From the IMG/VR virus record IMGVR_UViG_3300023179_000104, positions 1 to 64,000 of that record: a stretch of DNA of 64,000 bases. One strand, given 5' to 3'. The notes beneath the pieces were generated by a model. It was not told the origin of the DNA. It was given only the letters and a program-made list of their open reading frames with translations, and ran no database searches. Positions 41,567 to 47,066 of this stretch are shown one piece after another. The stretch's first letter is position 1. Each line of letters begins with the position of its first letter. This stretch comes from a virus. Both the position numbers and the translations under genes were made by a program.

Positions 41567-41971
41567 ATGACTATTGATTTTGATAAGTATGTTCAATTTG
41601 TTGGTGCTGTTACCAGTCCAGCATCCCGTAATATCACAGAGTTTGTTGATCACATTCTTGAATTGAAAGATCAAGGTGCTGACATTCAACGTCTACTTAC
41701 TGCTGCTTGTGGTATTACTGCTGAGGGTGGAGAGTTTACTGAGATTGTAAAGAAGATTGCATTTCAAGGCAAACCTTATAATAAAGATAACATCTATCAT
41801 ATGAAGCGTGAACTTGGAGATATCCTCTGGTATATTGCTCAAGCGTGTATTGCTCTTGATATTTCATTTGAAGAGATTGCTCAGATGAACTTTGAGAAAC
41901 TGACTGCACGATACCCAGAAGGAGCATTCAGTATTGAACGAAGTGAGAACCGAGTCGCAAACGATCTTTAA
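41567..41971 (+). CDS. mazG: MazG-type nucleotide pyrophosphohydrolase
   Basis: A 134-residue protein with the all-alpha NTP pyrophosphohydrolase motif E-x-x-E (EGGEFTEIVKK, about 54-64) and E-x-x-D (ELGDILWY, about 84-91), then an ARYPEGAFS end. MazG is common in cyanophages. It was proposed to hydrolyse ppGpp; biochemical work favours dGTP/dCTP, so it may help recycle host nucleotides. Located directly after gp41 in the early block. Confidence 0.93.
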   Translation: MTIDFDKYVQFVGAVTSPASRNITEFVDHILELKDQGADIQRLLTAACGITAEGGEFTEIVKKIAFQGKPYNKDNIYHMKRELGDILWYIAQACIALDISFEEIAQMNFEKLTARYPEGAFSIERSENRVANDL

Positions 41972-41977
41972 TAAATA
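41970..41977 (+). promoter_or_regulatory. Late-promoter-like AATAAATA before the 41999 cassette
   Basis: Seven of eight bases match TATAAATA. It overlaps the mazG stop and lies directly upstream of a hairpin that abuts the next start codon. Confidence 0.4.
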
Positions 41978-41998
41978 CCCCCATAAGGGGGATTTTTT
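41978..41998 (+). terminator. Hairpin-T tract abutting the start codon at 41999
   Basis: CCCCC and GGGGG pair around ATAA, followed by A and six T, with ATG next. It fits a small intrinsic terminator for mazG. The 3' arm GGGGGA is also the only ribosome-binding-like sequence for the next gene, so the hairpin may hide it. Confidence 0.7.
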
Positions 41999-43447
41999 AT
42001 GTCTACTGAAAAAAAAGATAAATGGATAAAATATTTTCAAGGTAAAGGTGATGTTGATACTTTTGTTAGAGCTACTGGTAGTGTAAAAAATAAAAGCTAT
42101 CTTTATGATTTAGAGGGCAAAAAAACTTCAACAAAACTTGAACATGGTGAACCCATACTTGTAAAAGAAAGAGAAGAATATATTATACAAGGACCATTTG
42201 CACACAAACTTTTTATTGAATCATCCAAAGGAAATGGGTGGCTTCATGTTGATAATATAGATAAAGGTATAGGGCAAAGAGCATCCATACGATTGGAATC
42301 TAATAAACTTATTGGATTGGGTGAACGGATGATAGTCCCTATGTTAAATGGTGAAGAAAATGTTTCATGCAGAATTTTCAAAACTGCGGAAAAACTTGCT
42401 ATATCAATTTTACATGGACTTGAGAATGAACCATCTGTTCCTGATTATATTGTTGACCAAGTATCACAGTTATTTTATGATGATGTAGTGTATACTCAAA
42501 ATTCATTAATAAGTGGAAATGTTGATTTTAAATGGAATGGTTCTGTTTCTGAAATTGAAAAAAATTCAATGGGAGTATATCTGGGAGAACTATTAATTGG
42601 TTATATGGCTTTAGTTGGAAAAACAGAATGTTTTTCAGAACCAGACATAGTAAAATTTCCAATTGAATATTTTGGAGTACCAGAAAATCCAGCATTTTCA
42701 GGAATTGATTCATTCATACAATATCAAGATAGGGGAAAAAATCAAGATGGCGGGAAATTTTTAATATCATCTAAAGCTGGCAATAAAGGTGCATCACCAT
42801 CTATATGGAAAAATATTATGCCGTATTTAAAACCCAATAAGTTAGATAGTAATACAAACGCCACTTTAGAAAAACTATATAATATTTGTAAAAATATTGA
42901 TGGTGGTAAAATAACTGGTCGTAAAGGTATGCAATATGTTTATAGATATGGCGTGAAAGAAATTTTGAATTACGAAGTTGGTCCTACAACTAGAGATGGA
43001 TCTGGGAAAGAAAAGGCAGTTGTAAATCCACAGGATTTTTATAATGTACTTAAAGCAGGTAAACCATATCCTCCTGTATATGATAATATAATATTAGATG
43101 CTATTAAAATACAAAAGAGTTTAAATTCTACAGAATTTAAATCTGCAAGCTCTACTGCAGTAACAACTGCATTGGAAAAAGGTGTTGGAATGAGTTCTTT
43201 TTTTTGTAGATATATTTCAGACAAACTAAATAATGAAATAAATTCTCTAGATAAGATGCGTAATACTGTATCTGGTAGAGTAGTTTATCAAGCATATTTA
43301 AATACACCAAAATTTAAAAAAGGTAAAATATATTTTACTACCAAAAAAGCAACAAAAGCTAGTTTAATTACCACTGGATCTAAATCTGGTGCAACTAAAA
43401 TTGATATGTCAAATACAGTTAATTATAATTTAATATTTGAAAACTAA
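41999..43447 (+). CDS. Unknown 482-residue protein, possible PD-(D/E)xK-like fold
   Basis: I do not recognise the family with certainty. The central part has an ordered set of acidic and Lys residues: E197 (VYLGELLIGY), D237 (SGIDSFI) and ISSK (256-259, K259) followed by AGNKGASPS. E ... D ... x-x-K spacing with a beta strand before SSK resembles restriction-type nucleases, although the last acidic position is Ser. The C-terminal 60 residues are Lys/Thr rich. Its TAA overlaps the next ATG, making it the first gene of a coupled cassette with a ligase-like and a nucleotidyltransferase gene. The nuclease idea is a weak inference. Confidence 0.6.
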   Translation: MSTEKKDKWIKYFQGKGDVDTFVRATGSVKNKSYLYDLEGKKTSTKLEHGEPILVKEREEYIIQGPFAHKLFIESSKGNGWLHVDNIDKGIGQRASIRLESNKLIGLGERMIVPMLNGEENVSCRIFKTAEKLAISILHGLENEPSVPDYIVDQVSQLFYDDVVYTQNSLISGNVDFKWNGSVSEIEKNSMGVYLGELLIGYMALVGKTECFSEPDIVKFPIEYFGVPENPAFSGIDSFIQYQDRGKNQDGGKFLISSKAGNKGASPSIWKNIMPYLKPNKLDSNTNATLEKLYNICKNIDGGKITGRKGMQYVYRYGVKEILNYEVGPTTRDGSGKEKAVVNPQDFYNVLKAGKPYPPVYDNIILDAIKIQKSLNSTEFKSASSTAVTTALEKGVGMSSFFCRYISDKLNNEINSLDKMRNTVSGRVVYQAYLNTPKFKKGKIYFTTKKATKASLITTGSKSGATKIDMSNTVNYNLIFEN

Positions 43448-44655
43448 TGGCAAACATAGTTAAACTAAAACACCTTGAACATCTTGAAGATGAAGTTTTG
43501 AACTACGGTTCGGAAGGATGTTTTGCGATTGTTAAATTCCTTACTGAACTTAAAAATATGATCGGCAAAAAATCTACGGGTGGATTTCTTCAAACTAAAT
43601 GGGATGGTGCTCCCTCTGTAGTTTGTGGAGTACATCCAATAACTGGAGGATTTTTTGTCGGAACTAAATCTGTATTTAATAAAAAAGATCCAAAAATTTG
43701 CTTTACTCCTGGCGATATTGACTCAATGTATGAGAACGAGTTAAATAAAAAACTTAAAGATTGTCTTAAGTATTTTTCACAACTCGGTATCACTGGGGTC
43801 ATTCAAGGAGATCTTCTATATACTAATGATAAAAAAACTCAAAGAATAAATGATGAAGAACTTGTAGTATTCAGACCTAATACAATTACATATGGTATCC
43901 CAACTGATCATCCGATTGGTCAAAAAGTCAATAGATCTAAAATTGGAGTGGTTTTTCATACTAATTATGCTGGTGGTCCTGATCTTGCAGATATGTCTGC
44001 AAGACCTCGTGTGGATATTTCAAAGTTTAATTCTGTTGATGATGTTGCCGTTATCTCTAATGATACGCAAGTTCAGCAAGTATCTTTTACGAAAACAGAA
44101 GAACAAACATTCAACAGATACATTCAAAAAATAAACAGAATGTGTGAGATCTCTGCAAAATTTCATGATTACATTGTGGAAAATTCAGGCACTACTGGAG
44201 ATGCAAAGTTTTTTGTTGGATCTTATTTAAAACCATTTTTTAATAATGAAATTAAAGAAGCAAGAACTATTAATAATGTTGATGCTACTCTAAAATCTTT
44301 TGCTGAATTTTATAAAACAAAAATGGATAAGGAAATTAATTCAGTAAAAACTGCAGCAGCACAAACAAAAAAGCGCGAATTTTTATACACGGGTGTTAAA
44401 TACTTAGAAGATCATCAAAATGAATTCAAGGCATTTGTTGCACTTTATCAAACCATTCAAGAAGCAAAGTTATTCATTATACAAAAACTGGATTCATTAG
44501 AACAGTTCAGAACTTTTGTTGAGATTGATGGAGGTTACAAAGTTACTACTCCAGAAGGTTATGTTCTTCATCAAGATGGGGATATGGTGAAATTAGTTAA
44601 TCGCATTGAGTTCAGTAAAAACAATTTTACAATAGAAAAGAACTGGAAGAAATGA
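43447..44655 (+). CDS. Ligase/nucleotidyltransferase-like protein (KxDG motif, DUF6267-like)
   Basis: A 402-residue protein. LQTKWDGAPSVV (K51-x-D53-G54) fits motif I of ATP-dependent ligases and capping enzymes. GGFFVGTKSVF follows where motif Ia is expected, GVIQGDLLYT (117-126) fits motif III with Q for E, KIGVVFHTNY (165-174) fits IIIa, and near the C-terminus PEGYVLH (motif IV, E-G-x-V) is followed by DMVKLVN (motif V Lys). The order is right for an RNA-ligase-type enzyme. It resembles proteins called DUF6267 in marine T4-like phages. A central helical insert separates IIIa from IV. Activity is an inference. Confidence 0.65.
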   Translation: MANIVKLKHLEHLEDEVLNYGSEGCFAIVKFLTELKNMIGKKSTGGFLQTKWDGAPSVVCGVHPITGGFFVGTKSVFNKKDPKICFTPGDIDSMYENELNKKLKDCLKYFSQLGITGVIQGDLLYTNDKKTQRINDEELVVFRPNTITYGIPTDHPIGQKVNRSKIGVVFHTNYAGGPDLADMSARPRVDISKFNSVDDVAVISNDTQVQQVSFTKTEEQTFNRYIQKINRMCEISAKFHDYIVENSGTTGDAKFFVGSYLKPFFNNEIKEARTINNVDATLKSFAEFYKTKMDKEINSVKTAAAQTKKREFLYTGVKYLEDHQNEFKAFVALYQTIQEAKLFIIQKLDSLEQFRTFVEIDGGYKVTTPEGYVLHQDGDMVKLVNRIEFSKNNFTIEKNWKK

Positions 44656-45224
44656 GCCTCATAGAATATAAAAGTTGTTACTTTACTTTTGGTAGATTTC
44701 AGCCCTGCACTATAGGACATGCGGATAACTTTGCCAATTTAAAAAAGATTGCTGGTACTAATGATTATCGCATTTACATCAGTCAGTCAGTAGATACAAA
44801 AGGTAATAATCCTTTACCTGCTGATGTTAAACTTACTTATATGAATAAGTCATTGCCAGAACATCGTGGTAAAATATTCAGTAGCGCAACTGCAAAAGAC
44901 CCTGTAACTATTCTACAGGAGTTACAGTCCTTAGGATATGACAACGCATACTTTGTTGTAGGGTCTGATAGAGTTCCTGCTATGCAATGGATTAAAAAAT
45001 ATAATGGTAAGGACTTTGTATTCAATGAACTTGATGTAATTTCTTCGGGTGATAGAGATGCTGATGGTGATACCTTTGCAATCTCTGGAACTAAAATGAG
45101 ACGTGCAGCATTTGCTGGTGACTTTAAAACTTTTAGAACTGGTATTCCTACAGCATTAACTGATACAGATTGTAAAAAACTTATGAAAGAAATTCAAACA
45201 AGATTGCCCGCAAATTTTAAATAA
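44652..45224 (+). CDS. HIGH-type nucleotidyltransferase (NMNAT/cytidylyltransferase-like)
   Basis: A 190-residue Rossmann-type protein. FGRFQPCTIGHADNF (13-27) contains the T-x-G-H form of the HIGH motif, and ISGTKMR (144-150) is the ISSTxxR-type motif. FVVGSDRV (101-108) is also typical. Such enzymes join a nucleotide to NMN, pantetheine-phosphate or CMP/FAD precursors. NMN adenylyl transfer is one option, and some large T4-like phages carry NadM. ATGA overlap couples it to the ligase-like gene. Confidence 0.8.
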   Translation: MSLIEYKSCYFTFGRFQPCTIGHADNFANLKKIAGTNDYRIYISQSVDTKGNNPLPADVKLTYMNKSLPEHRGKIFSSATAKDPVTILQELQSLGYDNAYFVVGSDRVPAMQWIKKYNGKDFVFNELDVISSGDRDADGDTFAISGTKMRRAAFAGDFKTFRTGIPTALTDTDCKKLMKEIQTRLPANFK

Positions 45225-45234
45225 AAAAACAAAA

Positions 45235-45939
45235 ATGCATTTACCAATCATAAACATTCAAAAAAATGGTGAAAGTAAATATATTGATATTATACAAAAT
45301 GCATTTGAAAAAGCAAAAAAATATGAAAGTAAACTTTCAGATTGGATTATTACTATGGAGGGAATGTCGGGGGTTCAGTATAGACATTTTGTAAATAATT
45401 TATTTGAAAATATTGAAAACTCTAACTACCTTGAAATAGGATGTTGGAAGGGATCTACTACATGTTCTGCCGCTTATAAAAATTTAATTAAAACATATTG
45501 TATTGATAATTGGAAAGAGTTTGGTGGACCCAAAGATCAATTCTCAAATAATATTAGTAGATGTATGACTGAAAGTGATGATAAATGTGATATTGAATTA
45601 GTTGAAAATGATTTTAGGAAATTACAATATGATAACATTGGCAAATATAATGTTTATATGTTTGATGGTCCACACTCACAAGATGATCAAAGGGATGCAT
45701 TAATAGTTGTTAAGGATGCACTTGAAGATGAATTTATTTTTATTTGCGACGATTGGAATTGGGGTGAGGTGAGAGAAGGTACTAGACAAGGATTAGAACA
45801 ATCTAATATGAAAGTAATTTATTCAATTGATCTTAGAACTACTCCTGATAATACTACTTGCAGTTTTGAGAATGGTTATGAAAGAAGTGACTGGCACAAT
45901 GGGTATTATATTTCAGTAATTAAAAAGTTAAATAAATAA
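45235..45939 (+). CDS. Class I SAM-dependent methyltransferase-like protein
   Basis: A 234-residue protein. NYLEIGCWKGST (64-75) is motif I of the Rossmann methyltransferase fold, and YMFDGPHSQDDQ (about 141-152) gives the acidic motif IV region, similar to the Methyltransf_24 group that acts on sugars or small molecules. It begins ten bases after the nucleotidyltransferase gene. Substrate unknown. Another methyltransferase with glycosyltransferases lies at 58798-60780. Confidence 0.75.
   Translation: MHLPIINIQKNGESKYIDIIQNAFEKAKKYESKLSDWIITMEGMSGVQYRHFVNNLFENIENSNYLEIGCWKGSTTCSAAYKNLIKTYCIDNWKEFGGPKDQFSNNISRCMTESDDKCDIELVENDFRKLQYDNIGKYNVYMFDGPHSQDDQRDALIVVKDALEDEFIFICDDWNWGEVREGTRQGLEQSNMKVIYSIDLRTTPDNTTCSFENGYERSDWHNGYYISVIKKLNK
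45931..45938 (+). promoter_or_regulatory. Late-promoter-like AATAAATA before 45963
   Basis: Seven of eight bases match TATAAATA, overlapping the stop of the methyltransferase gene, 24 bases before the next ATG. Confidence 0.35.
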
Positions 45940-45962: not shown

Positions 45963-47066
45963 ATGTATAATTTTTCTGAATACTCCACCAAAGTGTACAT
46001 GCGCGAAAAGTACTATAGTGGAGAAATGTTTCCAGAAGGAATGAGAGTAAAGAATAATAACGATAGAGTAGGTGTTATAATTCGTCGGGGACCAAATTAT
46101 GTAATTTGTTTAGACGAGAATCAAAAAACTTTTAGGAGTTGGATTTCTGATGTTCATGAAGTGCATGAATTAGGAACTGATGAAACGAGAGAATATCTTC
46201 AAGGATTGACGCCAGGACAAAAAATTGAAAAATATGCAAAGACGAAAACCCCTGAACACACTACAATCATAAATAAAAGAAAAAGTGTTCAAAAAGAAAT
46301 GTACAACGATAGTTTTTCCAAATTTTTAATTGAAAGATCCGCTAATGGAATTAGCGGAAAAAATTGTTTTGGAGAAGTAGAAAATCAAGAAGAAGTAGTA
46401 AATAATTTTTCCAAAGAATTGATTGCTGAGGCAGAGAAAAGTTTAAAAACTGATAATCCTTGTTGGAAAGGTTATAAACCAGTAGGCACCAAAAAGAAAA
46501 ATGGTAAAACAGTTCCTAATTGCGTTCCCGAAGAAGTAGAAAATTCTACTGCAGATAAAAAAGCTGATAAAGCAGGAATGAAAAAATATCATATGACTTC
46601 TGCTGAATGGGAAAAATCTGAAATGGATAAAAAAGCAGATGCCAAACTTGATAAAAAAACAAAAAAAGAAGGATTAGATCCTGTTGGTAAAGAAGATGCT
46701 GATGTTAACAATGATGGTAAAGTTGATAAAACTGATAGCTATTTAAAGAAGCGTCGTGTCGCAATTTCAAAATCAATTACTAAAAAAGAAGAATATTCGG
46801 ATTGGAGAAATGAACTTGAAGAAGGTAAAAAACCAAAAGAAGGTGAGCAAGTTCCTGAAGTAAAAGAATCTTCATGTGGAAATTGTGGAACATGCAGCAA
46901 GTGTAAATCAATAAAGATGGAAGATAAATTGTCTCCCTCAGAAACAGGAAAAAAAGAAAAATTAGTTAAGTCAATGAAAAAAAATTTAAAGGATTTTAAA
47001 TCACGTTATGGAGAACGTGGTAAATCAGTTATGTACGCTACTGCCACAAAAATGGCAAAAGAATAA
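45963..47066 (+). CDS. Modular Lys/Glu-rich cyanophage-type protein with EF-hand-like loop
   Basis: A 367-residue protein of several short modules. Residues ~30-75 ([20 protein letters not shown]) form a small barrel-like part. Next comes a Cys pair module ([20 protein letters not shown], then PNCVPEE). Residues 247-258 ([12 protein letters not shown]) are an EF-hand/dockerin-like calcium loop. Residues ~305-316 hold four Cys ([10 protein letters not shown]), a possible metal site. The end [20 protein letters not shown] is common in cyanophage proteins. The middle is Lys/Glu-rich and probably disordered. A virion role is plausible; none is proven. Confidence 0.7.

Follow-up and report, generated by a model that had tools for sequence, protein, structure and literature searches.

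A mobile, predicted late unit of marine T4-like phages combines an exchangeable nuclease-like protein with ligase-like and NMNAT-like partners

A unit of three genes is found in most marine T4-like phages: a putative nuclease, here called X, is followed by DUF6267, a predicted ligase-like protein, and by a nucleotidyltransferase of the HIGH superfamily that resembles nicotinamide mononucleotide (NMN) adenylyltransferases (NMNAT). The unit is described here from IMG/VR virus record IMGVR_UViG_3300023179_000104, of which 64,000 of 66,499 bases were analysed (hereafter, the window). The best-supported description concerns structure and genetics: the unit is mobile and apparently late, and encodes an exchangeable restriction-type nuclease-like protein, a ligase-like protein and an NMNAT-like one, the gene for X being swapped between phages as an exact cassette. 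As to function, our leading, though tentative, proposal is that the unit acts late on DNA, cutting and joining it or modifying its ends, and serves phage conflict or DNA maturation, with RNA repair and replicative ligation as live rivals. A fixed ligase/nucleotidyltransferase pair beside an exchangeable nuclease is an arrangement not found in the sources searched, and these phages had been thought to lack a ligase of their own.

Linkage, cassette exchange and the late-promoter motif

A preliminary description of the window had proposed four coupled open reading frames (ORFs) at this place, joined by TAATG (43445-43449), ATGA (44652-44655) and 10 bases (between 45224 and 45235), all of which are there as claimed (Table 1). 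It had read a nuclease-like pattern in gene 1, ligase-like motifs in gene 2 and a HIGH nucleotidyltransferase in gene 3, and each of these readings has gained from comparison with relatives, the residues concerned being conserved in 31, 66 and 18 homologues, respectively. Its proviso that gene neighbours might vary freely between related phages is borne out for gene 4, which varies and probably lies outside the unit, but not for genes 1-3, which recur together. Three properties go beyond that description: gene 1 is exchangeable and hyperdiverse, the unit stands under a late-promoter motif, and gene 2 belongs to a named domain of unknown function (DUF).

The trio of X, DUF6267 and nucleotidyltransferase recurs in phages of Synechococcus, Prochlorococcus, Methylophilales and Pelagibacter, as well as in phage-like contigs binned with many marine taxa; it is also present in the soil Stenotrophomonas phage DLP_6, beside thymidylate synthase and outside the replication cluster. 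Directly 5' of the unit in the window, as in cyanomyoviruses, stands the T4-like order of DNA polymerase, UvsX, gp41-type helicase and MazG. Among 156 DUF6267 loci surveyed, 13 lack an ORF of at least 150 amino acids abutting the DUF6267 start, most others have one and a few lie at contig edges; at 69 loci this ORF and DUF6267 share the exact TAATG-type one-base overlap. Partial versions of the trio also occur: Caulobacter phage Cr30 has X and the nucleotidyltransferase without DUF6267, phiM12 has X and no DUF6267, and one record (L170) has a Cr30-like X followed directly by DUF6267.

Within this arrangement it is gene 1 that is exchanged. In ten close relatives, protein identity averaged over pairs is 0.48 (gene 1), 0.88 (gene 2) and 0.90 (gene 3), with MazG at 0.74 (eight of the ten); where genes 2 and 3 of a relative are 83-94% identical, its gene 1 is ~35-53% identical. 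The boundary is sharp: 20-34/60 nucleotides are identical at the very end of gene 1, against ~53/60 immediately after gene 2 has begun. ORFs occupying the slot that abuts DUF6267 form many clusters with no BLAST similarity between clusters, and comprise at least 13 sequence families. The slot protein of loci L038/L039 is a DNA methylase and was excluded from the count of X, and direct plasmid searches returned no plasmid homologues of X.

The motif [AC]TAAATA lies within 60 nucleotides (nt) upstream in 81 of 87 unique X stretches, mostly at -35 to -25, compared with 13 of 105 DUF6267 starts and 107 of 363 other ORFs; NATAAATA is the published late promoter of S-PM2 (PMC2984593). As the next late promoter core stands at 45931, genes 1-4 are predicted to be transcribed late as one unit. 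A hairpin separates the late promoter core from the ATG of gene 1, with no Shine-Dalgarno sequence there, and this arrangement is repeated in many relatives.

Three predicted enzymes

Gene 2 is a full-length member of DUF6267 (PF19782, T4-GC 71, phrog_455), matching profile positions 2-376 of 376 with an E-value of 4.4e-121 and 405 bits against a cut-off of 27. By tblastn, relatives occur in 471 phage records, nearly all of them cyanomyoviruses. The family has no recorded function and is not named in the literature searched; its member S-PM2_138 is listed as 'unknown' among conserved cyanomyovirus genes (PMC2984593). Fold prediction and motifs together make it very probable that gene 2 belongs to the covalent nucleotidyltransferase (ligase/capping) superfamily. 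The motifs are K51-W-D-G-A-P, V-I-Q-G-D122, K-I-G-V-V-F-H-T, E370-G-Y-V and V-K382-L-V-N-R386. K51, D53, G54, P56, Q120-G121-D122 and H171-T172 are invariant across the homologues, and E370, G371, K382 and R386 nearly so, a conservation that argues against chance; these residues correspond, in order, to ligase motifs I, III, IIIa, IV and V, with the IIIa-like stretch ending in H171-T172.

The preliminary description had staked its ligase reading on the predicted fold, which might have proved unrelated to ligases and is instead nearest to them. The AlphaFold2 model (predicted local distance difference test, pLDDT, 89.3) was compared by running VIA-align on Foldseek candidates, and almost all of the 50 rows listed are ligases. 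The best, Naegleria RNA ligase 6vt0, has Z 7.5 over 179 aligned residues (root-mean-square deviation 4.1), a range that by the tool's own guidance is non-decisive alone, and the match is convincing only with the motifs; further scores were 6.4 for T4 Rnl2 (2hvq), 6.1 for T4 Rnl1 (2c5u), 5.9 for an archaeal RNA ligase (5d1o) and 5.8 for human DNA ligase 1. What gene 2 shares with the T4 Rnl2/Naegleria RNA ligase family is thus the predicted adenylylation-domain fold and the order of motifs. The match covers residues 8-396, skipping a helical insertion (~209-349) that is missing from short forms of the family. In the short forms of Syn9 and S-RIM2, motif III reads QAD. A short form of ~295 amino acids lies far from MazG in P-SSM2, S-SM2 and ACG-2014f, and S-T4 has a short form away from MazG, with two such places; these copies (set L173, L174, L202, L204) retain the active-site residues. 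Such short, solo copies, among them one form in S-T4 and L038-L042, sit outside the unit.

Gene 1 is probably a nuclease of the PD-(D/E)xK type, and is called putative throughout. All homologues compared keep E197, D237, S257 and K259, and nearly all keep S258, with Ser in place of the second acid, and the model has a helix-strand-strand-strand order around this region. Pfam, PHROG, NCBIfam and PADLOC gave no match, nor did restriction endonuclease (REase) models, and the seven structural relatives that BFVD gave at E<=0.001 all lack a named function. The other occupants of the slot point in the same direction. Thirteen slot families with at least two diverged members were compared, and a conserved S-x-K pair was found in all 13 (in one of them the true site is probably ELK), against a mean of 1.84 and a maximum of 6 in 2000 column-shuffled controls; the next-best residue pairs reach 6, and S-x-K occurs in 11 of 27 other families of the same loci. 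A conserved Asp lies upstream of S-x-K in 8 slot families, the next pair being found in 3. A plain D...SxK regular expression proved too frequent in long proteins (shuffled baseline 0.63) and was dropped as evidence, so this conserved-column test was used in its place.

Isolates outside the slot-family sample have the same pattern: HTVC008M (TDF..ISLK), P-HM1 (PADL..GISLK), S-CAM1 (NDI..LSVK), S-RIM2 (PMDI..GVSLK) and Melnitz-3 (TDI..FSLK). In profile comparisons gene 1 pairs with slot family CL4 (95.6%), their D and SxK positions coinciding, and CL4 pairs in turn (95%) with CL13, that is, L020, a BLAST relative of S-PM2_140. Another slot family, CL2, matches REase_II (4.3e-8) and a type II nicking endonuclease (3.3e-7) across its D..ISHK site, and its invariant E106, D152 and S167-H168-K169 parallel E197, D237 and S257-S258-K259 of gene 1. 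The D..SxK layout recalls Cfr10I and NgoMIV.

Judged by its sequence, gene 3 is an NMNAT-like nucleotidyltransferase of the HIGH superfamily, matching PF01467 (CTP_transf_like, 9.9e-5) and phrog_3041 (7.1e-62), with no NCBIfam match. It carries G-R-F-Q-P-C-T-I-G-H and I-S-G-T-K-M-R; G14, R15, P18, G22 and H23 are invariant, and the family keeps GRF[NQ]PxxxGH and SxxK[ML]R. The same signatures, GRFxPxxxGH and SxxK[ML]R, occur in the NMN/nicotinate-nucleotide adenylyltransferases NadM, NadD and NadR, and the best enzymes in a PDB profile search (NadD, MJ0541 and NadR) came up weakly (E 0.016-0.9) among unrelated chains. Unlike NadM, NadD and NadR, some relatives of gene 3 are fused to DUF6267, Pol-beta or KOW-like parts. 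Fusions to DUF6267 were seen at loci L136-L138 and in S-PM2. The older S-PM2 record AJ630128 (L044 4986-6765) has a frame change that splits DUF6267 into S-PM2p138/p139, and in record LN828717 tblastn covers DUF6267 in one piece; as the split is possibly a sequencing error, the S-PM2 fusion is likely a true gene. A candidate nucleotidyltransferase relative in phiM12 (L285 8296-10104) has a degraded GH motif (TVEHEEL for TVGHEKL); this relationship was judged by eye, and no profile match was obtained.

Proposed mechanism and rival explanations

The proposal of a late cut-and-join or end-modifying module draws on the predicted fold and motifs of gene 2, the linkage of the genes, cassette exchange and the late-promoter motif, with folds and linkage well supported. 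X would be a DNA endonuclease or nickase of the PD-(D/E)xK type; from phage to phage its sequence is replaced as a cassette, and its target presumably changes too. Lys51 of DUF6267 would attack ATP or another nucleotide, and transfer of the nucleotide to the 5' end of a nucleic acid would seal or modify that end; the NMNAT-like nucleotidyltransferase would act together with DUF6267. In the simplest form, X would cut or nick DNA late in infection and DUF6267 would seal or adenylylate the ends. Since sealing takes no account of sequence, a change of cutter would not require a change of ligase, and in this the proposed module differs from methylase-protected restriction systems. We infer nuclease activity for X, DNA rather than RNA as the substrate, the sealing step, a role for gene 3 and the purpose, which would likely be conflict with competing DNA (host, prophage or co-infecting phage) or, alternatively, DNA maturation before packaging.

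A more ambitious version, which we consider distinctly unlikely, is a restriction-like system with a new logic, in which a swappable, sequence-specific nuclease would act late against competing DNA whilst a specificity-blind ligase/nucleotidyltransferase pair resealed or marked self DNA, with no matched methylase. If true, abundant marine phages would carry a late restriction-like weapon against competing DNA. Slot families with D...S-x-K plus a helix Glu resemble type II restriction endonucleases of the PD-(D/E)xK class; unlike these, the unit has no cognate methylase, and gene 1 itself matches no REase model. Nor is the composition that of a restriction-modification system, the constant partners being DUF6267 and the nucleotidyltransferase, with gene 4 matching no DNA methylase model.

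Several observations weigh against the cut-and-join proposal. The late promoter is known as a sequence motif and not as a transcript, and the accessory domains of some lineages, a polynucleotide kinase (PNK)-like kinase and Pol-beta, also fit RNA repair. For gene 1, the core found no PDB match and the PDB search hit the SH3-like N-terminus alone, so its PD-(D/E)xK fold stays putative. For DUF6267, the best Z lies below 8, and profile comparison with T4 Rnl2 relatives was non-significant (hhalign probability 0.1-0.3%); as sequence-profile proof of homology failed, the ligase assignment rests on fold and motifs. Unlike T4 Rnl2 and Naegleria RNA ligase, DUF6267 has Asp in motif III, where ligases have Glu, a ~150-amino-acid helical insertion between motifs IIIa and IV, and no C-terminal domain: no OB-type domain follows motif V, the gene 2 protein ending ~20 amino acids past K382. 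The missing OB domain and the motif III Asp would suit a protein that is no ligase at all and has a protein or small molecule as the acceptor of its nucleoside monophosphate, or is an RNA-capping enzyme, with X and the nucleotidyltransferase in a modification or metabolite pathway; an NMNAT-type partner, and adenylate kinase in some units, would fit such a pathway too. Polynucleotide ligases are nonetheless the nearest folds, and Rnl2 has, by eye, a similar motif V (VKLVNRIEFSK in gene 2); we regard this explanation as very unlikely.

That RNA ligases are the nearest folds also suits a tRNA repair module, in which DUF6267, as an RNA ligase, would work alongside PNK and Pol-beta to mend tRNA cut by host anticodon nucleases, X being an unrelated neighbour. 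One lineage has PNK-like kinases and Pol-beta nucleotidyltransferases with DUF6267, fused to the HIGH nucleotidyltransferase or its neighbours, and HTVC008M has a PNK-like kinase near DUF6267; this company of a ligase fold with PNK and Pol-beta matches the RNA-repair sets of RNA ligase, PNK and RlaP Pol-beta described for jumbo phages (PMC7824862), and the window carries seven tRNA genes. Against this, most cyanophages examined have neither PNK nor Pol-beta, and in the window neither belongs to the immediate unit. The universal partners of DUF6267 are instead X and the HIGH nucleotidyltransferase, unlike in those repair sets (PMC7824862), and the constant neighbour, X, is DNA-restriction-like and has the late promoter before it; we hold tRNA repair to be plausible but unlikely.

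Much the same standing, credible though improbable, is given to the idea that DUF6267 is the missing replicative DNA ligase of cyanomyoviruses, standing in for T4 gp30, with X as a host-DNA-degrading nuclease in place of denA/denB. A 2010 review noted that cyanomyoviruses are without gp30 and denA/denB, and raised both unrecognised distant ligase homologues and an undescribed route of DNA degradation (PMC2984593), an open question on which the predicted ligase fold of DUF6267 now bears. Fifteen DUF6267 records have neither PF01068 DNA ligase nor PF09414 RNA ligase (S-WAM2, S-PM2, S-8S56, S-RIM2, Melnitz-3, P-SSM2, S-T4, Syn9, HTVC008M, P-HM1, S-SM2, S-CAM1, ACG-2014f and two IMG/VR records), nine DUF6267 records tested have no NAD ligase, and T4, KVP40, Aeh1, IME13 and Cr30 have both PF01068 and PF09414 and lack DUF6267; the unit, moreover, adjoins gp43-uvsX-gp41. 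This complementarity is confounded by phylogeny (Kyanoviridae versus others), and host ligase can serve, as the review argues (PMC2984593). DLP_6 carries DUF6267 plus a recognisable DNA ligase, which lowers the strict 'missing gp30' reading, and, together with the late-promoter motif directly 5' of the unit, weakens plain replacement.

Feature coordinates and neighbouring genes

Table 1. Features of the unit and its borders, in window coordinates
Feature	Position	Strand	Basis
T4-type late promoter core AATAAATA, 29 nt 5' of gene 1 start	41970..41977	+	Motif
Hairpin CCCCC-ATAA-GGGGG, then A + T6; terminator-like, ends at gene 1 ATG	41978..41998	+	Read from sequence
Gene 1 (X), 482 amino acids, putative PD-(D/E)xK-type nuclease, SH3-like N-terminal part	41999..43447	+	E197...D237...S257-S-K259
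Gene 2, DUF6267 (PF19782), predicted ligase-like covalent nucleotidyltransferase, catalytic Lys K51	43447..44655	+	Pfam, AlphaFold2, VIA-align, motifs
Gene 3, HIGH-superfamily nucleotidyltransferase, NMNAT-like	44652..45224	+	PF01467, phrog_3041, alignment, weak PDB profile matches
Gene 4, S-adenosylmethionine (SAM) methyltransferase (Methyltransf_24), optional insertion	45235..45939	+	PF13578
Next late promoter core AATAAATA, bounds unit, before following gene at 45963	45931..45938	+	+ strand positions of NATAAATA

Gene 4 (PF13578, 2.8e-7) was rejected as a member of the unit, as an insertion missing from most relatives; among those fetched it occurs elsewhere in L001 and L002 only (re-fetched as L151/L152).

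Accessory domains vary around the unit in one marine T4-like lineage, where a Pol-beta nucleotidyltransferase is fused to the HIGH nucleotidyltransferase in L098, L107, L104 and L124, the fusion including a PAP2-like domain in two members. After DUF6267 the same lineage has adenylate-kinase-like (L104, L124) and PNK-like (L104, L113, L124) proteins. The gene at 45963-47066 has, at residues 11-96, a domain that the HIGH nucleotidyltransferase of other phages carries at its C-terminus (phrog_395), and the small stand-alone version is labelled ribonucleotide reductase NrdB in some records, a label that looks wrong.

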